Shown one piece after another: positions 16,212 through 62,580 of a DNA stretch of 64,000 nucleotides (its first letter is position 1; each line of letters starts with the position of its first letter). A model generated the notes under the pieces. That model worked only from the letters and a program-made list of their open reading frames with translations. It searched no databases and was not told the DNA's origin. A program made the position numbers and the translations under genes. This DNA is from Bacteroidia bacterium (GTDB taxonomy: Bacteria > Bacteroidota > Bacteroidia > AKYH767-A > OLB10), in contig JAEUTH010000008.1 in NCBI GenBank assembly GCA_016788165.1, positions 1 to 64,000 on the forward strand. The letters are read 5' to 3'.

Positions 16212-17087
16212 CTACTCTAACACAAAGTTAAATGAAATGGTTCCCTTCTGAGTTTCTTTACCATCGGGGCTGGCATTAAACGGTGTGCTTAAAGCAGCTT
16301 CTTTAGCCAATTTGTAAAGGTAGGCGCTGTTAGTAGTTGAGCCTACATCGCCCGGTATGGCGCTAATAACTTTACCTTGTTTATCAACAATAATGGCTAC
16401 TACAACCTTGCCCGTTTCTTGCGATTTATCATCAATACGTGGTGGACGTAACCATTTACGACCTGCTAAATTTAATTTTACACCCGAGCCTTTGCCATCT
16501 CCTTTACCATCGCCACTGCCACCACCGCTGCCGCCACCATCTCCACCGCCATCACCTTTACCATTGCCATTTTTCCCATAAAAAGTAGAAGAAGGGTCGC
16601 CTTGTGGGTCGCCTTGGTCGCCATTGCCTTTGGTTGCATTGCCATCAGATCCTTTTTTATTAGAACCTTTAAACAGTGCACTTTGGTTAAGCTGTCGTTC
16701 AGGTGTTTTGGTAGTGGCAGTTGGGTTTACTTTGGTTTCAACCGGCTTAACGGTTTTTGTTTCTGTAGGTTTTTTATTGGTTTTTTCTACAGGTTTAACA
16801 GCAACTGTGTTTTCGTTTTCTGTTGTAATTATTTCTTCGGCATTGCTGCTGGCTGGCTGTGGTATGGGCTCGGTTTGTTGTGGTTGTGTAGATGTTATTT
16901 CAGAAGTTGCTTGTATTTGACCTGATGCTTCGTCAACGGTGCCAATGCTTACCAACATGCCACCACCACCGGCATCGGCAAAAGGTGGGTTGGGTGTTGA
17001 TAAGGCAAATACAAACATCAATGCCACCAATATTGCATGTATAAGCAATGTAAGCAGTATGGATTTATTTCTGATGGTTGCTTCCAT
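16212..17087 (-). CDS. tonB: TonB-family energy transducer
   Basis: The 291-residue protein has one N-terminal membrane helix (about 10-29), a long periplasmic linker and a C-terminal TonB domain (about 210-291, with 'GKVVVAIIVDKQGKV' and 'FNFVLE'). The linker has two parts. One is rich in Pro, Thr, Lys and Glu (about 60-130). The other is unusually rich in Gly, Asp and Lys (about 170-205, GDGGG-type repeats). TonB passes the energy of the proton gradient from ExbB/ExbD to outer-membrane transporters. The genes sit together in the order exbB-exbD-tonB. Their receptor is not in the window. Confidence 0.9.
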   Translation of the reverse strand: MEATIRNKSILLTLLIHAILVALMFVFALSTPNPPFADAGGGGMLVSIGTVDEASGQIQATSEITSTQPQQTEPIPQPASSNAEEIITTENENTVAVKPVEKTNKKPTETKTVKPVETKVNPTATTKTPERQLNQSALFKGSNKKGSDGNATKGNGDQGDPQGDPSSTFYGKNGNGKGDGGGDGGGSGGGSGDGKGDGKGSGVKLNLAGRKWLRPPRIDDKSQETGKVVVAIIVDKQGKVISAIPGDVGSTTNSAYLYKLAKEAALSTPFNASPDGKETQKGTISFNFVLE

Positions 17088-47032: not shown

Positions 47033-48508
47033 TTAATAAGCTCTTGCAAATACAACACGCTGCATACTTGGTTTGCCTGTTTTAATGCAGGTGCCTGTTT
47101 CAGGTTTACTATCTAATGGAATGCAACGGATTGTTGCTTTGGTTTCTTCTTTTATTTTTTGTTCGGTTTCAGGTGTGCCATCCCAATGCGCATAAACAAA
47201 ACCGGGTTTGGTATCAAGTGTTTTTACAAAGTCGTCCCAGGTATCAACATAATGGGTTGATTGGTTTCTGAACTCCAATGCTTTTTCAAAAATTGATTGT
47301 TGCATTTGTTGTAACAGTTCGGATACATACATTTCAATACCTTCAACATGTACGGTATTTTTTGTTTTGGTATCGCGTCTGGCAATTTCTACCTGATTGT
47401 TTTCCATATCGCGCGGGCCTATAGCAATACGTATGGGTACACCTTTAAACTCATATTCGCTAAATTTCCAGCCGGGCTTTTGATTGTTGGCATTATCATA
47501 CTTCGTTCTAATATTTAATTTTTGTAATGCATTTTTTATGGGTGCAACAAACCGGTTAATAGCTTCTAATTGTTCATCGTTTTTATAAATGGGTACTATA
47601 ACAACTTGTATGGGGGCTAACTTAGGTGGTAGTACCAATCCATCATCATCGCTATGCGCCATAACTAAAGCGCCCATTAAACGTGTGCTTACGCCCCATG
47701 AAGTTGCCCAAACATACTCTTGCACACCGGATTTGTTTGTAAACTTAACATCAAAAGCTTTGGCAAAATTTTGACCTAAAAAATGTGACGTGCCAGCTTG
47801 TAGTGCCTTGCCATCTTGCATTAAGGCTTCAATGCAATAAGTATCTAAAGCACCGGCAAAACGTTCATTGGCAGTTTTAACGCCTTTAATTACGGGCACG
47901 GCTAACCAGTTTTCGGCAAAATCGGCATACACATCCAACATGCGTTTTGTTTCTTCAATTGCTTCATCAGTTGTGGCATGTGCCGTATGACCCTCTTGCC
48001 ATAAAAACTCTGCTGTACGCAAAAACAAACGCGTACGCATTTCCCACCGAACTACATTGGCCCATTGATTTATGAGTAGTGGCAAATCCCTGTATGACTG
48101 TATCCAGTTTTTATACGTGTTCCATATAATGGTTTCAGAAGTTGGCCTTACCACCAGCTCTTCTTCTAACTTAGCATCGGGGTCAACTACAATGCCTTTT
48201 CCATCGGGGCTGTTTTTTAAACGATAGTGGGTTACAACAGCGCACTCTTTTGCAAAACCTTCGACATGCGCTGCTTCTTTGCTTAAAAATGATTTGGGAA
48301 TAAATAATGGAAAGTATGCATTTACATGACCTGTATCTTTAAACATTTTATCCAGCGTTTGTTGCATTGTTTCCCAAATGGCATAACCATAAGGCTTAAT
48401 TACCATACAACCACGTACGGATGCATTTTCGGCCAGGTCGGCACGTGTAACCAATTCGTTATACCACTCTGAATAATTTTGTTTACGTGTGGTGAAATCT
48501 TTTGCCAT
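47033..48508 (-). CDS. proS: Prolyl-tRNA synthetase, archaeal/eukaryal-type short form
   Basis: ProS charges tRNA-Pro with proline. The 491-residue length, the lack of the bacterial editing insert, and the C-terminal end in Tyr (VVFARAY) mark the archaeal/eukaryal-like type that is common in Bacteroidota. Class II motifs are visible: the motif-2 region '[28 protein letters not shown]' (about 150-177) and the motif-3 region '[19 protein letters not shown]' (about 268-286). It converges on uvrA. No clear -7 box was found in its 181-base upstream space. Confidence 0.96.
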
Positions 48509-48702
48509 AAATATTGTTACTAATGAAATTAATATGAAACTAAATCAATGCTATTAACTAACATGGTTTGATGGCGTCAAAATTGTAAAACATCACACAC
48601 AATACCAATTCGATTTTAAATAATACATAATAACTTATACATATAAAAAGCAAGCTATTGTAAAATCCTCGAATATTCATCTTTTACTTATGGAATTACA
48701 GT

Positions 48703-48740: not shown

Positions 48741-50330
48741 ATGAAAAAGCTCCTCACTGCCTTAGTAGTTTGCACTTTAGCATTAACAGCTTGCAATTCG
48801 GCTAAACAAACAGCCTCATCAGGTTATGATGATGTGTATGGTGCCGGTAAACAAACAGTACAAAATAATGTGCCTGTTGCACCACAAAGCAATGTTCATA
48901 ATTATTCATCTACTCCTGTGCCCAATAGTAATAACCGGTTTGATTATGCAAACCCTGCCGTAACTGATGGCAGCACTGGTAATACGTATGTAACCAATAA
49001 TTATTACGATGCTGATAATTATTATGATTATGCATATTCATCGCGTATTCGCAGGTTTTACAATCCGGTTGGTTTGGGTTATTACAACCCCTACTTTACC
49101 AATTCATATTGGTATGATTATCAGCCTGCATCGTGGGGTTTAAGTATTTACAGTACATACAATTGGTGGGCGCCATCAGTTTATTACAGTTATAGTCCGT
49201 TTGTTGGTAGTGGCTGGGCTTTTAATATAGGCTTTGGCCCAACTTATAACCCTTACTGGTATCGCCCTTATTATTATCCAATGGGTTTTTATAATCCTTA
49301 TTTGTATAATTCATTTGGCGGCTGTAACACTTGTTGCAATAGTTGTTACCAAAATATTTCTTACTATAACAATTGCCCTTACTACTATAATAGCTATGAT
49401 AACACCTCGCACTATTTTGGCAATAGCAAAGGCAACCATACCGGTGGTAGTGGTGTTAGTTATGTACAAGGTGGACGTGGTGCAACTCTGCAAACCAACA
49501 CATTGGGCGCTGTGTATGCCAGCAACAACACGCCTGTAACTAATAATATAAATACAACTCCACATGCACCTACCTTGGCTGAACCCGTTCGTAACAACAA
49601 TATAAATACGGTGCAGCCCGGTAAAAATAATTTGGGCGAGCTTAATACAAGTGGTGATGTTAGGGGTAATACCAACGCAAATACTACAGGAGGTGTAAAA
49701 CCGGTACGCGATAACCCTGCTTATAATCCTAAAACAACGCTTGCACCTGCAACCGGTGGTGTAAAACCAGCAAATGGCGATGTGCGTGGCAATCCTGCAA
49801 GTAATCCACGTTCCAATACCAATGTTATCATGTACACACCTGATCCACGAAACAGTAATGGCGGGTCAATCAACAGCAACCCACGTAATAACAGTGTGCC
49901 ATCAAATAACGATTACAGCAACCCGCGTAATAACAGTGTGCCATCAAATAGCGATTTCAGTAACCCGCGTAATAACAGTGTGCCATCAAATAGCGATTAC
50001 AGCAACCCACGTAATAGCAATGTGCCATCAAATAACGATTTCAGTAACCCGCGTAATAACAATGTGCCATCAAATAACGATTTCAGTAACCCGCGTACAC
50101 AGCCAAAAAACAGCGATTATTCAAATCCGCGTACCAATGCAACGCCTGCATACGAATCGCCAAAAGAAGTGGTTAAACCTTATCGCAGAAATACCAATGA
50201 TTTAGATAGAAGCAACAGTACACCTCGTAGCACCTATCAAACACCAAGCAGCGATAGGCCATCTTACAATACACCAAAACAAACACCTGCACCACGCCAA
50301 AACAACCAAGGTCGCAGCAATCCACGTTAA
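48741..50330 (+). CDS. Tyr/Asn-rich lipoprotein with tandem repeats
   Basis: The 529-residue protein starts with a lipoprotein signal (MKKLLTALVVCTLALTAC, lipid Cys18). The first part (about 60-230) is very rich in Tyr, Asn and Ser with Cys pairs (CNTCCNSC). The second part is low-complexity Asn/Pro/Thr and contains five 14-residue tandem repeats SNPRNNSVPSNND[Y/F] (about 379-448). The C-terminus is polar with many Arg-Ser-Asn. I chose the start at 48741 rather than 48690 because the lipoprotein signal begins there and a -7 box lies between the two. No enzyme domain is seen. It is probably a surface or matrix-like protein; function unknown. Confidence 0.85.
   Translation: MKKLLTALVVCTLALTACNSAKQTASSGYDDVYGAGKQTVQNNVPVAPQSNVHNYSSTPVPNSNNRFDYANPAVTDGSTGNTYVTNNYYDADNYYDYAYSSRIRRFYNPVGLGYYNPYFTNSYWYDYQPASWGLSIYSTYNWWAPSVYYSYSPFVGSGWAFNIGFGPTYNPYWYRPYYYPMGFYNPYLYNSFGGCNTCCNSCYQNISYYNNCPYYYNSYDNTSHYFGNSKGNHTGGSGVSYVQGGRGATLQTNTLGAVYASNNTPVTNNINTTPHAPTLAEPVRNNNINTVQPGKNNLGELNTSGDVRGNTNANTTGGVKPVRDNPAYNPKTTLAPATGGVKPANGDVRGNPASNPRSNTNVIMYTPDPRNSNGGSINSNPRNNSVPSNNDYSNPRNNSVPSNSDFSNPRNNSVPSNSDYSNPRNSNVPSNNDFSNPRNNNVPSNNDFSNPRTQPKNSDYSNPRTNATPAYESPKEVVKPYRRNTNDLDRSNSTPRSTYQTPSSDRPSYNTPKQTPAPRQNNQGRSNPR
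49875..50084 (+). repeat. Five in-frame 42-bp tandem repeats
   Basis: Units at 49875, 49917, 49959, 50001 and 50043 each encode 14 residues, SNPRNNSVPSNNDY with small changes (S/N, Y/F). A shortened copy follows at 50085. The unit is a multiple of three, so gain or loss of copies keeps the frame and changes only the protein length. Confidence 0.95.
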
Positions 50331-50347
50331 GCTTCAATAAATATTTT

Positions 50348-50406
50348 AAATCGCTATTTGCTTATTTTAAGATAATGGATCTTGAATAACCAGATAGCGA
50401 TTTTTT
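50348..50406 (+). terminator. Terminator after the repeat lipoprotein
   Basis: A 10-bp stem (AAATCGCTAT at 50348-50357, ATAGCGATTT at 50394-50403) encloses 36 bases and is followed by T. The loop is long for a simple terminator, but the position, 18 bases after the stop codon, fits. Confidence 0.6.
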
Positions 50407-50430: not shown

Positions 50431-51933
50431 ATGAAAATTAAACTTATAAGTTTTTTAAGTATTATAACTTTATGTACCAATGGACAAACAACCGATGATG
50501 CCATTCGATTTTCAGAAAATACTTTTGGTACAACAGCCCGTTCGTTAGCAATGGGAGGCGCATTTGGTGCATTGGGTGGCGACTTTAGCGTAACCGGCCA
50601 AAACCCGGCAGGTTTAGCTATTTACAGGCGTGGTGAGTTAACTTTTTCTCCGGCTTTTAATTTACATGCCATCTCAAATAATTTCGAAGGTAATAACACA
50701 AACGATAGCCGGTTTTATTTCAACTTTGGGAGTGCAGGTTTGGTGTTTGCAAAGTATAAGGAACAAAAATCAGGTTGGAAAGGATTTAATTTTGCATTCG
50801 GTTATAACCGCGAAACCACTTATAAAAGTTATGAAAAGTTTAGTGGTATCAACAAAAGCAATAGCATGCTTAACAGTTTTGTTGAACAGGCTGAAGGTGT
50901 ACCTGTAAGTAACCTCGAAGATATTGAATATGCATTTGGCCCGGGTATGGCATACAACTTATATTTAATGAACCCCGTTACACCAACAGCAACAACTTAT
51001 ACTGCAGCAATAGCAAATGGCGGTGCTTTGCAAAAAGAAGACATGAGTATAAAAGGTAATAGCGGTAATTTTTTATTCAGCATGTCAAATAATTTTAATG
51101 ATTTGTTGATGCTGGGTGCAACATTTGAGCTAAGGAGCTTACGTTACGATTATAAATCAACCTATCGCGAAGTAGATATTTCTGACACTATTAACAGCCC
51201 TTACTTTGGAATGGATATTAAAGATTGGGCTTTTTTTAGGGAAGAAAGTACTGATGGTGCAGCTGTAAGCTTAAAATTTGGGATGATTGTACGACCTACT
51301 GATAATATAAGAATTGGTGCGGCAATACATTCACCGGCTTGGTATAACATGACTTATGAAGATAACTACAACATGGAATCAACTTTTGGAGCCAATGGCG
51401 ATTCGGTGTTTACCCTAACCAGCCCACCAAGCAGTACATTTGAATATCGTTATAACACACCATTTCGGGCCTTAGGTAGTGTAGCATTTATTTTTCCTGC
51501 CAAGGGCCTCATTAGTTTCGACTATGAATATACTAATCAGCAAGCGGCAAGGTTTAAGAAAGCCGATGAGTTTGATTATAATTTTAGTTTCGAAAACGGT
51601 ATTATTAAAGAGTTTCATGCCAAACAGCATACTATTAAAGTAGGAGGCGAATTGTTTATAAGCAATATGTATTTACGAGCCGGAGGTGTTTACACTACAT
51701 CGCCTTATACCGAAAACGTTTTGCCCAAAGAATATGATTACAGCAGTATTAGTTATACAGTAGGCATTGGCTGGCGTTGGCAAAAAAGTTATTTTGATAT
51801 TGGTTATGCTTTAACGCAAACACAGCAATACAAAGTACCTTACTCGCTTGCCGATAACAGCCAACCCGGCATCGAATCGAAAAACAACCTGCACCGTTTA
51901 ATGTTTACTTACGGCATTCGCTTTAACCGATAA
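50431..51933 (+). CDS. Outer-membrane transport protein, OmpP1/FadL-like
   Basis: The 500-residue protein has a signal peptide (cleavage near TNGQTT, 19) and a long amphipathic beta-strand body. The start of the mature part, 'TARSLAMGGAFGALGGDFSVTGQNPAGLA' region (about 35-63), is the hallmark of the FadL/OmpP1 family, in which an N-terminal plug with NPAG enters a barrel. Relatives carry long-chain fatty acids and other hydrophobic substrates over the outer membrane; in Bacteroidota they are sometimes called hemin receptors. The strand pattern continues to the end (YGIRFNR). The substrate cannot be told. Confidence 0.85.
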   Translation: MKIKLISFLSIITLCTNGQTTDDAIRFSENTFGTTARSLAMGGAFGALGGDFSVTGQNPAGLAIYRRGELTFSPAFNLHAISNNFEGNNTNDSRFYFNFGSAGLVFAKYKEQKSGWKGFNFAFGYNRETTYKSYEKFSGINKSNSMLNSFVEQAEGVPVSNLEDIEYAFGPGMAYNLYLMNPVTPTATTYTAAIANGGALQKEDMSIKGNSGNFLFSMSNNFNDLLMLGATFELRSLRYDYKSTYREVDISDTINSPYFGMDIKDWAFFREESTDGAAVSLKFGMIVRPTDNIRIGAAIHSPAWYNMTYEDNYNMESTFGANGDSVFTLTSPPSSTFEYRYNTPFRALGSVAFIFPAKGLISFDYEYTNQQAARFKKADEFDYNFSFENGIIKEFHAKQHTIKVGGELFISNMYLRAGGVYTTSPYTENVLPKEYDYSSISYTVGIGWRWQKSYFDIGYALTQTQQYKVPYSLADNSQPGIESKNNLHRLMFTYGIRFNR

Positions 51934-61734: not shown

Positions 61735-62580
61735 TTGTTGGAATTTAAAAATTTTGTAGTAGCCTTTATTGTTGCCGTTAGCTTTCAATTTTATTGTAAA
61801 GCCGGTAATGAAAATATGCCGGCCGGTGCCCGCGCTGCAGGTATGGGCAACGCTGCAGTTACTTTAACCGATATGTGGTCGGCATTTCAAAATCAGGCCG
61901 GCTTGGCAACTTTAAAAGGCTTGCACATTGGCGCTTTTAACCAACTCAGATACGGCCAAACCGAGCTGATGCAAAACGCTTTGGTAGTTGCATTACCATT
62001 AAAAGATGTAGGCACTTTTGCAGTTACATTTAATCAATTTGGTTATAGCGCTTATAACGAACAAAAAGTAGGTATTGCATATGCACGCAGTTTTGGTAAA
62101 ACGGTTTCGGCAGCTATGCAGTTAAATTATAATGGCACCAACATTAGCGATAATTACTATGGTAATAACCATGCTGTAACAGTCGAAGCGGGTATGCGTA
62201 TCATACTGTTGCCTGAGTTAACTTTTGGCGTACATGTTTATAATCCTACGCGTGCTGCACTTAACAACTACAATGATGAACGCATTCCCACCACATTTAA
62301 AGCAGGTTTAGGTTATCAGTTAAATGAGAAAGTTTTAATTGCTGCCGAAATTGAAAAAACATCTGAAACAAAGCCTGTTTTTAAAACAGGATTCGAATAC
62401 CAATTTGTAAAAAAGATGTGGTTGCGGGCGGGATTTAGCACCAATCAAAATCAGGGATATTTTGGTTTGGGCATGCAACTTAAACAACTACAGATAAATT
62501 TTGCGGCATCATTTCATCAAACATTAGGCTTCACACCACATGCCGATTTAGGTTACAACTTTGTGTCTGCAAATCCGTAA
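61735..62580 (+). CDS. PorV/PorQ-like outer-membrane protein (TTG start)
   Basis: The 281-residue protein resembles the PorV/PorQ group of FadL-like barrels tied to T9SS: right after the signal peptide comes 'ARAAGMGNAAVTLTDMWSAF' with 'QNQAGLA' in place of the usual NPAGLA, then regular amphipathic strands to the end. The signal peptide (MLEFKNFVVAFIVAVSFQF..., cleavage near YCKA) exists only if translation begins at TTG 61735 or TTG 61738; the first in-frame ATG (61816) would remove it. So a non-ATG start is likely. Its stop codon overlaps the ATG of the next gene (TAATG). PorQ or a paralogue are both possible. Confidence 0.78.
   Translation: MLEFKNFVVAFIVAVSFQFYCKAGNENMPAGARAAGMGNAAVTLTDMWSAFQNQAGLATLKGLHIGAFNQLRYGQTELMQNALVVALPLKDVGTFAVTFNQFGYSAYNEQKVGIAYARSFGKTVSAAMQLNYNGTNISDNYYGNNHAVTVEAGMRIILLPELTFGVHVYNPTRAALNNYNDERIPTTFKAGLGYQLNEKVLIAAEIEKTSETKPVFKTGFEYQFVKKMWLRAGFSTNQNQGYFGLGMQLKQLQINFAASFHQTLGFTPHADLGYNFVSANP

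Follow-up and report, generated by a model that had tools for sequence, protein, structure and literature searches.

Tandem repeats that keep the reading frame form a general class in low-complexity envelope proteins of bacteria. Expandable repeats in a low-complexity tail are of this known kind, and the array considered here is, taken alone, ordinary. In the Bacteroidota, acidic residues at a short distance from the lipidated cysteine are reported for surface lipoproteins (PMC5080379, PMC12578637); the export signal is described as two acidic residues near this cysteine, their position being critical in Capnocytophaga (PMC5080379). BamG is described as a FadL-family barrel that, as part of the BAM complex, bears surface lipoproteins (PMC12578637) and has a lipoprotein partner (PMC12578637, PMC12611786). 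According to the former source, BamH bears the surface-export signal, and BamA of the Bacteroidota has a flexible loop rich in Tyr, Gly and Asn.

Here we describe a tandem array in the window, by which we mean the entire 64,000-nucleotide stretch that was analysed. The array is a lineage-specific in-frame expansion in a cationic tail. The protein that bears this tail is a conserved lipoprotein of the Bacteroidota, and its gene is flanked by proS and by a gene for an outer-membrane barrel. The notable part is the lipoprotein itself: it belongs to no family named in Pfam or NCBIfam, its place next to proS and a FadL-like barrel is conserved in much of the Bacteroidota, and its tail evolves freely while the arginine end that follows hardly varies. 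An earlier note on this DNA, made from the window alone, missed both the candidate short linear motif contained in the repeat and the membership of the protein in a widely conserved locus.

The lipoprotein and its repeat array

The lipoprotein gene (48741–50330, plus strand) encodes 529 amino acids; the assignment is based on the list of open reading frames, the single-copy repeat and the presence of the family in related genomes. There is an alternative in-frame ATG at 48690, but the one at 48741 is preferred, since a signal peptide and a lipobox fit there. The predicted signal peptide (48741–48791, plus strand) extends up to the lipidated Cys18 (codon 48792–48794), as follows from reading of the sequence and from the lipobox pattern of the homologues; the lipobox of the window protein reads LALTAC. 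A signal peptide ending in a lipobox cysteine, the mark of bacterial lipoproteins, is hence seen in the window protein, and the pattern was found in 97 of 109 unique homologues. Among the twelve homologues where the pattern detects no clear lipobox, L011, L036, L041 and L089 look lipoboxed by eye, and some of the rest appear to be secreted without lipid.

The mature protein has two parts. The conserved Tyr-rich core (residues 18–228; 48792–49424, plus strand) was delimited by two alignments (A2 and A4), the profile boundary and composition. It contains numerous near-invariant positions in both alignments and the conserved segments DDVY, NTYVTNNYY, YYDYAYSSRIRRF, GYYNPYFTNSYWYDY and PYYYNSYD. 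The tail (49425–50327, plus strand), recognised by composition and charge, is of low complexity, dominated by Asn, Pro and Ser, and has a net charge of +14. The extreme composition pointed out earlier is confirmed, with 19% Tyr in the core and 20.6% Asn and 12.3% Pro in the tail. The core also contains a cysteine cluster, CNTCCNSC, and a fifth cysteine (49323–49376, residues 195–212); four or more core cysteines occur in only three of the 109 homologues, the window protein included, and disulfides or a metal site are possible.

The lipoprotein has no Pfam match at E up to 1. Its best NCBIfam score is 16.9 bits against a cut-off of 50, confined to the signal-peptide region, and the scan of 30 core sequences against both libraries yielded weak, scattered matches only, so that neither library assigns the protein to a named family over a curated cut-off. 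In a search of the open-access literature we found no paper describing the family by title or abstract. The name "vitellogenin II" may have been given to its flavobacterial homologues.

Tandem Repeats Finder (TRF) reports one array in the tail, at 49873–50097 on the plus strand, with a period of 42 bp, 5.4 copies, 92% matches, no indels and a score of 359. The maximum score in 500 codon-shuffled tails was 61, and eight of them reached 50. There are five full units in the coding register (49878–50087), 14 residues each: NPRNNSVPSNNDYS, NPRNNSVPSNSDFS, NPRNNSVPSNSDYS, NPRNSNVPSNNDFS and NPRNNNVPSNNDFS; a degenerate sixth unit lies directly 3' of them. The full units are identical in pairs at 36–40 of 42 bases and differ in six columns; the changes in two of these, at third codon positions, are silent, and those in the other four exchange N with S or Y with F. 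The repeat is present once in the 3.34 Mb genome, a draft of 46 contigs. An open reading frame of 143 codons in another frame (49774–50205) overlaps the array; it is a by-product, because the repeat period is a multiple of three. Elsewhere in the window there is a second, weak tandem repeat (16506–16551, period 15, 3.1 copies), within the minus-strand open reading frame 16212–17087.

The 42-bp repeat of the earlier note is real, lies in frame in a low-complexity tail as claimed, and consists, as stated there, of near-identical units differing at few bases. The position given for it, 49875–50084, does fall in the array, but the coding register starts three bases further right.

The locus and its distribution

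Upstream of the lipoprotein gene and divergent from it lies proS, proline--tRNA ligase (47033–48508, minus strand), identified by TIGR00408 (E=8.1e-172, above the cut-off) and by synteny. Where the contig leaves room, proS is found divergently upstream in 102 of 108 loci, and in 94 of 97 a FadL-like barrel gene lies downstream in the orientation of the lipoprotein gene.

A search with the single protein found no related loci; these were retrieved by an alignment-based search. A homologue is present in 47 of the 61 related genomes searched, the window's own counted, and of 396 genomes belonging to the same class, 202 have the family according to the profile of the core (alignment A2). The latter number is a lower bound, because diverged reading frames occupy the same place in FadL-bearing genomes where the lipoprotein gives no match. 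Indeed, we read six such loci, and four of them hold a divergent reading frame of 367–456 amino acids between proS and the barrel gene; two (L173 and L176) are supported by the profile, and two (L174 and L177) are placed by position and architecture only. L175 ended at the contig edge. In L178 a short reading frame (1522–2007, about 160 amino acids) with a Pro/Lys-rich tail, lacking profile support, lies between proS and a distant FadL-like gene; it is possibly a minimal form of the lipoprotein. The 80 loci of the contig scan come from records titled, e.g., Bacteroidia, Bacteroidales, Chitinophagales, Sphingobacteriales and Flavobacteriales. An entire locus of the Bacteroidota type is also seen in a record titled Candidatus Competibacteraceae (L073), probably a mislabelled or mixed bin.

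For the counts, loci identical over residues 61–160 were merged (127 to 109 unique homologues), and the C-terminal counts exclude homologues whose 3' end is open (109 to 102). Several rows look truncated or frame-broken: L030, L027, L098, L104 and L108 were dropped from the tail-length statistics; L098, L104 and L108 from the motif, composition and co-variation counts.

The scan for promoters and terminators gave sites no commoner than in shuffled sequences. By eye, an inverted repeat, AAATCGCTAT / ATAGCGATTT, followed by a T run, is seen between the lipoprotein and barrel genes (50348–50406). Its loop is longer than the terminator scan allows; the element may keep the transcripts of the two genes apart. 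Further along, the product of the reading frame 53948–55453 matches the model of the lyso-ornithine lipid synthetase OlsH at 391 bits, below the cut-off of 620.

Tail arrays, motif and arginine end

Strong arrays, defined as TRF period of at least 30 and score of at least 150, are present in 29 of the 102 tails with a complete 3' end, with periods of 30–192 bp. All 77 tail TRF rows of period at least 30, some of them overlapping, have periods divisible by three. Applied to the neighbours at these loci, 94 barrel genes and 103 proS genes, the same test finds no strong array. Tail arrays have arisen repeatedly, and since the units differ between lineages, most are not one inherited array.

Array periods and sequences that differ between lineages are also what would be expected if the tail were an unconstrained spacer that gathers chance duplications, the repeats having no function beyond length. 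The 73 of 102 tails without a strong array and the wide range of tail lengths (30–466 amino acids in 97 proteins) fit this explanation as well. Three features of the tails speak against it, and we consider it rather unlikely. One is charge, net positive in all 99 homologue tails examined. The other two are a motif enriched even in tails without arrays and a conserved arginine that follows the tail.

The candidate motif is [YF]xxP[RK]. It is observed 150 times in the tails against 14.7 (sd 3.7) in shuffles, about tenfold, and 56 times against 10.1 (sd 3.4), about fivefold, in the 71 tails without arrays. With gaps of 0, 1, 3 and 4 residues in place of two, the counts are 1, 41, 38 and 15, against about 14–15 each in shuffles. 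At least one copy is present in 45 of 99 tails (13.6 in shuffles, maximum 23). The tail of the window protein has eight copies, six of which are YSNPR or FSNPR and lie in the array and just 3' of it. Arrays of unlike lineages thus appear to converge on this motif and to multiply it. Nevertheless the motif is only a lead, because the shuffles ignore relatedness of the tails, the reversed pattern P[RK]xx[YF] is enriched too (36 against 14.6), and 54 of the 99 tails have no copy.

The protein of the window ends in SNPR (50316–50327, plus strand), its form of the arginine C-terminus revealed by the survey of C-termini. The last residue is Arg in 87 of 102 proteins, and the last two are Arg-Arg in 55, whereas Arg makes up 8.4% of the tails overall. 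With four broken rows excluded (L030, L098, L104 and L108), Arg is found within the last three residues in 97 of 98 proteins. Such constancy of the arginine end, next to so variable a tail, points to a tether whose tip is functional.

Close relatives show how fast the arrays change. In L028 and L029, whose cores are 99% identical, the tails align without gaps and the arrays have 3.8 and 3.9 copies in one case and 2.4 in both in the other. The tails of L004 and L008 (98% core identity) differ by a gap of one residue, and L005 and L006 (95%) by a single gap of three. In congeners at no more than 92% core identity there are clear in-frame length changes, often with many gaps; L011 and L033 differ by 12 gaps covering 65 residues. 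Array turnover is slow, on the species time scale, as the closest congeneric pairs keep copy number while the pairs at or below 92% differ. Copy number does differ among relatives, as in phase-variable repeats, both in dissimilar periods and numbers and between congeners whose cores are about 92% identical or less. Length variation is borne out between species by the tails and by the arrays. The suggestion that the repeat expands or contracts easily fares less well: it agrees with the changes at or below 92% identity but not with the constancy of the closest pairs.

Our preferred reading, a tentative one that falls somewhat short of probable, is that the protein serves as a multivalent tether in the outer membrane and probably faces the periplasm, with motif and repeats setting valency and reach. 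The tail would be flexible, its motif copies and terminal arginines contacting an envelope component, either peptidoglycan or a protein. Repeat number would determine how many binding motifs the tail has and how far it reaches, shifting over species time and not as a phase switch. The core and tail may lack a native fold or acquire one only upon binding a partner. AlphaFold2, given 71 aligned sequences for the core and the region next to it, leaves the core unfolded (pLDDT 49.4, pTM 0.21). On the other hand, the near-invariant core positions are unusual for a purely disordered segment and count against a tether; given how many of them there are, AlphaFold2 may simply fail on this core. If the motif and the arginine end bind something, the partner would be an unrecognised piece of Bacteroidota envelope biology, and the recurrent motif expansion, if the motif binds, would supply natural valency variants.

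A related but quite improbable idea is that the acidic Tyr-rich core and the Arg-rich tail attract each other through tyrosine–arginine contacts, as stickers of a condensate-like lipoprotein clustering around the barrel, with [YF]xxP[RK] expansion tuning valency. Outer-membrane-anchored copies would then surround the FadL-like barrel as a dynamic layer or cluster.

Membrane side, the neighbouring barrel and related systems

The earlier note regarded the protein as a surface lipoprotein whose repeats vary the length of a stalk. In-frame repeats and a low-complexity tail would suit a lipoprotein flipped to the cell surface, and BamG, another FadL-family barrel, is reported to carry surface lipoproteins (PMC12578637). 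Moreover, an acidic pair, DDxY, is conserved 9–14 residues after the cysteine in most homologues. The position of the signal, however, is described as critical in Capnocytophaga (PMC5080379), and in the first six residues after the cysteine the window protein has no acidic residue; among the 97 lipoboxed homologues, 91 have none, five have one and a single one has the two of the export signal. Prediction of surface location is not sustained by these counts, and the copy number kept in the closest pairs also disagrees with a stalk of variable length, so we consider a surface stalk unlikely. Absence of the signal falls short of proving periplasmic position; with moderate confidence, the core and tail are placed on the periplasmic side. 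In the tether reading the lipoprotein would sit in the outer membrane, core and tail towards the periplasm, and would work with the adjacent barrel.

This barrel (50431–51933, plus strand, 500 amino acids) was characterised by its structure model, fold matches and synteny. The model is of high confidence (pLDDT 93.3, pTM 0.89), and its predicted fold is that of the FadL-type outer-membrane barrels which defines the FadL superfamily. Among its fold matches are CymD, FadL, TbuX and TodX (Z about 34–35), the BamG chains being at Z about 33. Distances of the lipoprotein and the barrel co-vary beyond what proS explains (partial r 0.39, reached in 0 of 999 permutations; 69 of 109 loci), but this is not specific, as the value is no larger than that for the barrel and proS given the lipoprotein (0.44). 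PG1626, described as a "putative hemin receptor" (PMC1887533, PMC4980022), may be an orthologue of the barrel.

The FadL fold, the lipoprotein neighbour and the likeness of the core composition to the Tyr/Gly/Asn-rich loop reported for BamA (PMC12578637) could mean that the barrel is BamG and the lipoprotein an unrecognised subunit of the BAM complex. We consider this very improbable. The profile of 28 barrel homologues (A3) finds none of the BamG chains at E up to 10, though BAM entries are in the library; its only matches at this level are TbuX and a FadL homologue. Further, another gene of the genome, on contig 12 (L170:1267-2679 in our numbering of loci; genome G000), matches the Flavobacterium chain 9n2d_B, "Bam G", at 5.3e-51 and takes that identity. 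The barrel was accordingly rejected as BamG and, by these sequence comparisons, is a FadL-like protein separate from it. The reading frame beside the contig-12 gene is, we assume, type III pantothenate kinase. Two other candidates were rejected. The canonical FadL on contig 11 has no BamG match and gives no match in five of 21 genomes, of which five, four are 96% complete or better; a 796-residue protein was considered as BamA, but the BamA of this genome is on contig 33.

Compared with the known systems, the locus resembles BamG–BamH in combining a FadL-family barrel, here with Z about 33 to the BamG chains, with a lipoprotein. It differs in that the barrel is not BamG by sequence, and that BamH is reported to have the export signal (PMC12578637) while the lipoprotein family is without it. 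The FadL, TodX and TbuX channels (PF03349) are similar in fold, with Z about 35 to CymD, FadL and TbuX, and 11 of the 28 barrel homologues match PF03349 at E up to 0.1. However, the window barrel has no Pfam match in the protein scan and its six-frame PF03349 score is below the cut-off, and the canonical FadL of the genome is separate. With PorV and PorQ of type IX secretion the likeness consists in NF033709, matched by 13 of the 28 barrel homologues at E up to 0.1, whereas the window barrel has a single PorV-type match, to PorV2, which scores 18.5 bits where the cut-off is 325. A PorV-family-like match (51.7 bits, cut-off 90) is seen elsewhere in the window, at 61816–62559. Finally, the array shares with other in-frame repeats of low-complexity envelope proteins a period divisible by three, near-identical units and a tail tolerating copy changes; it differs from them in that the closest pairs keep a constant copy number and that unlike arrays share a short motif.
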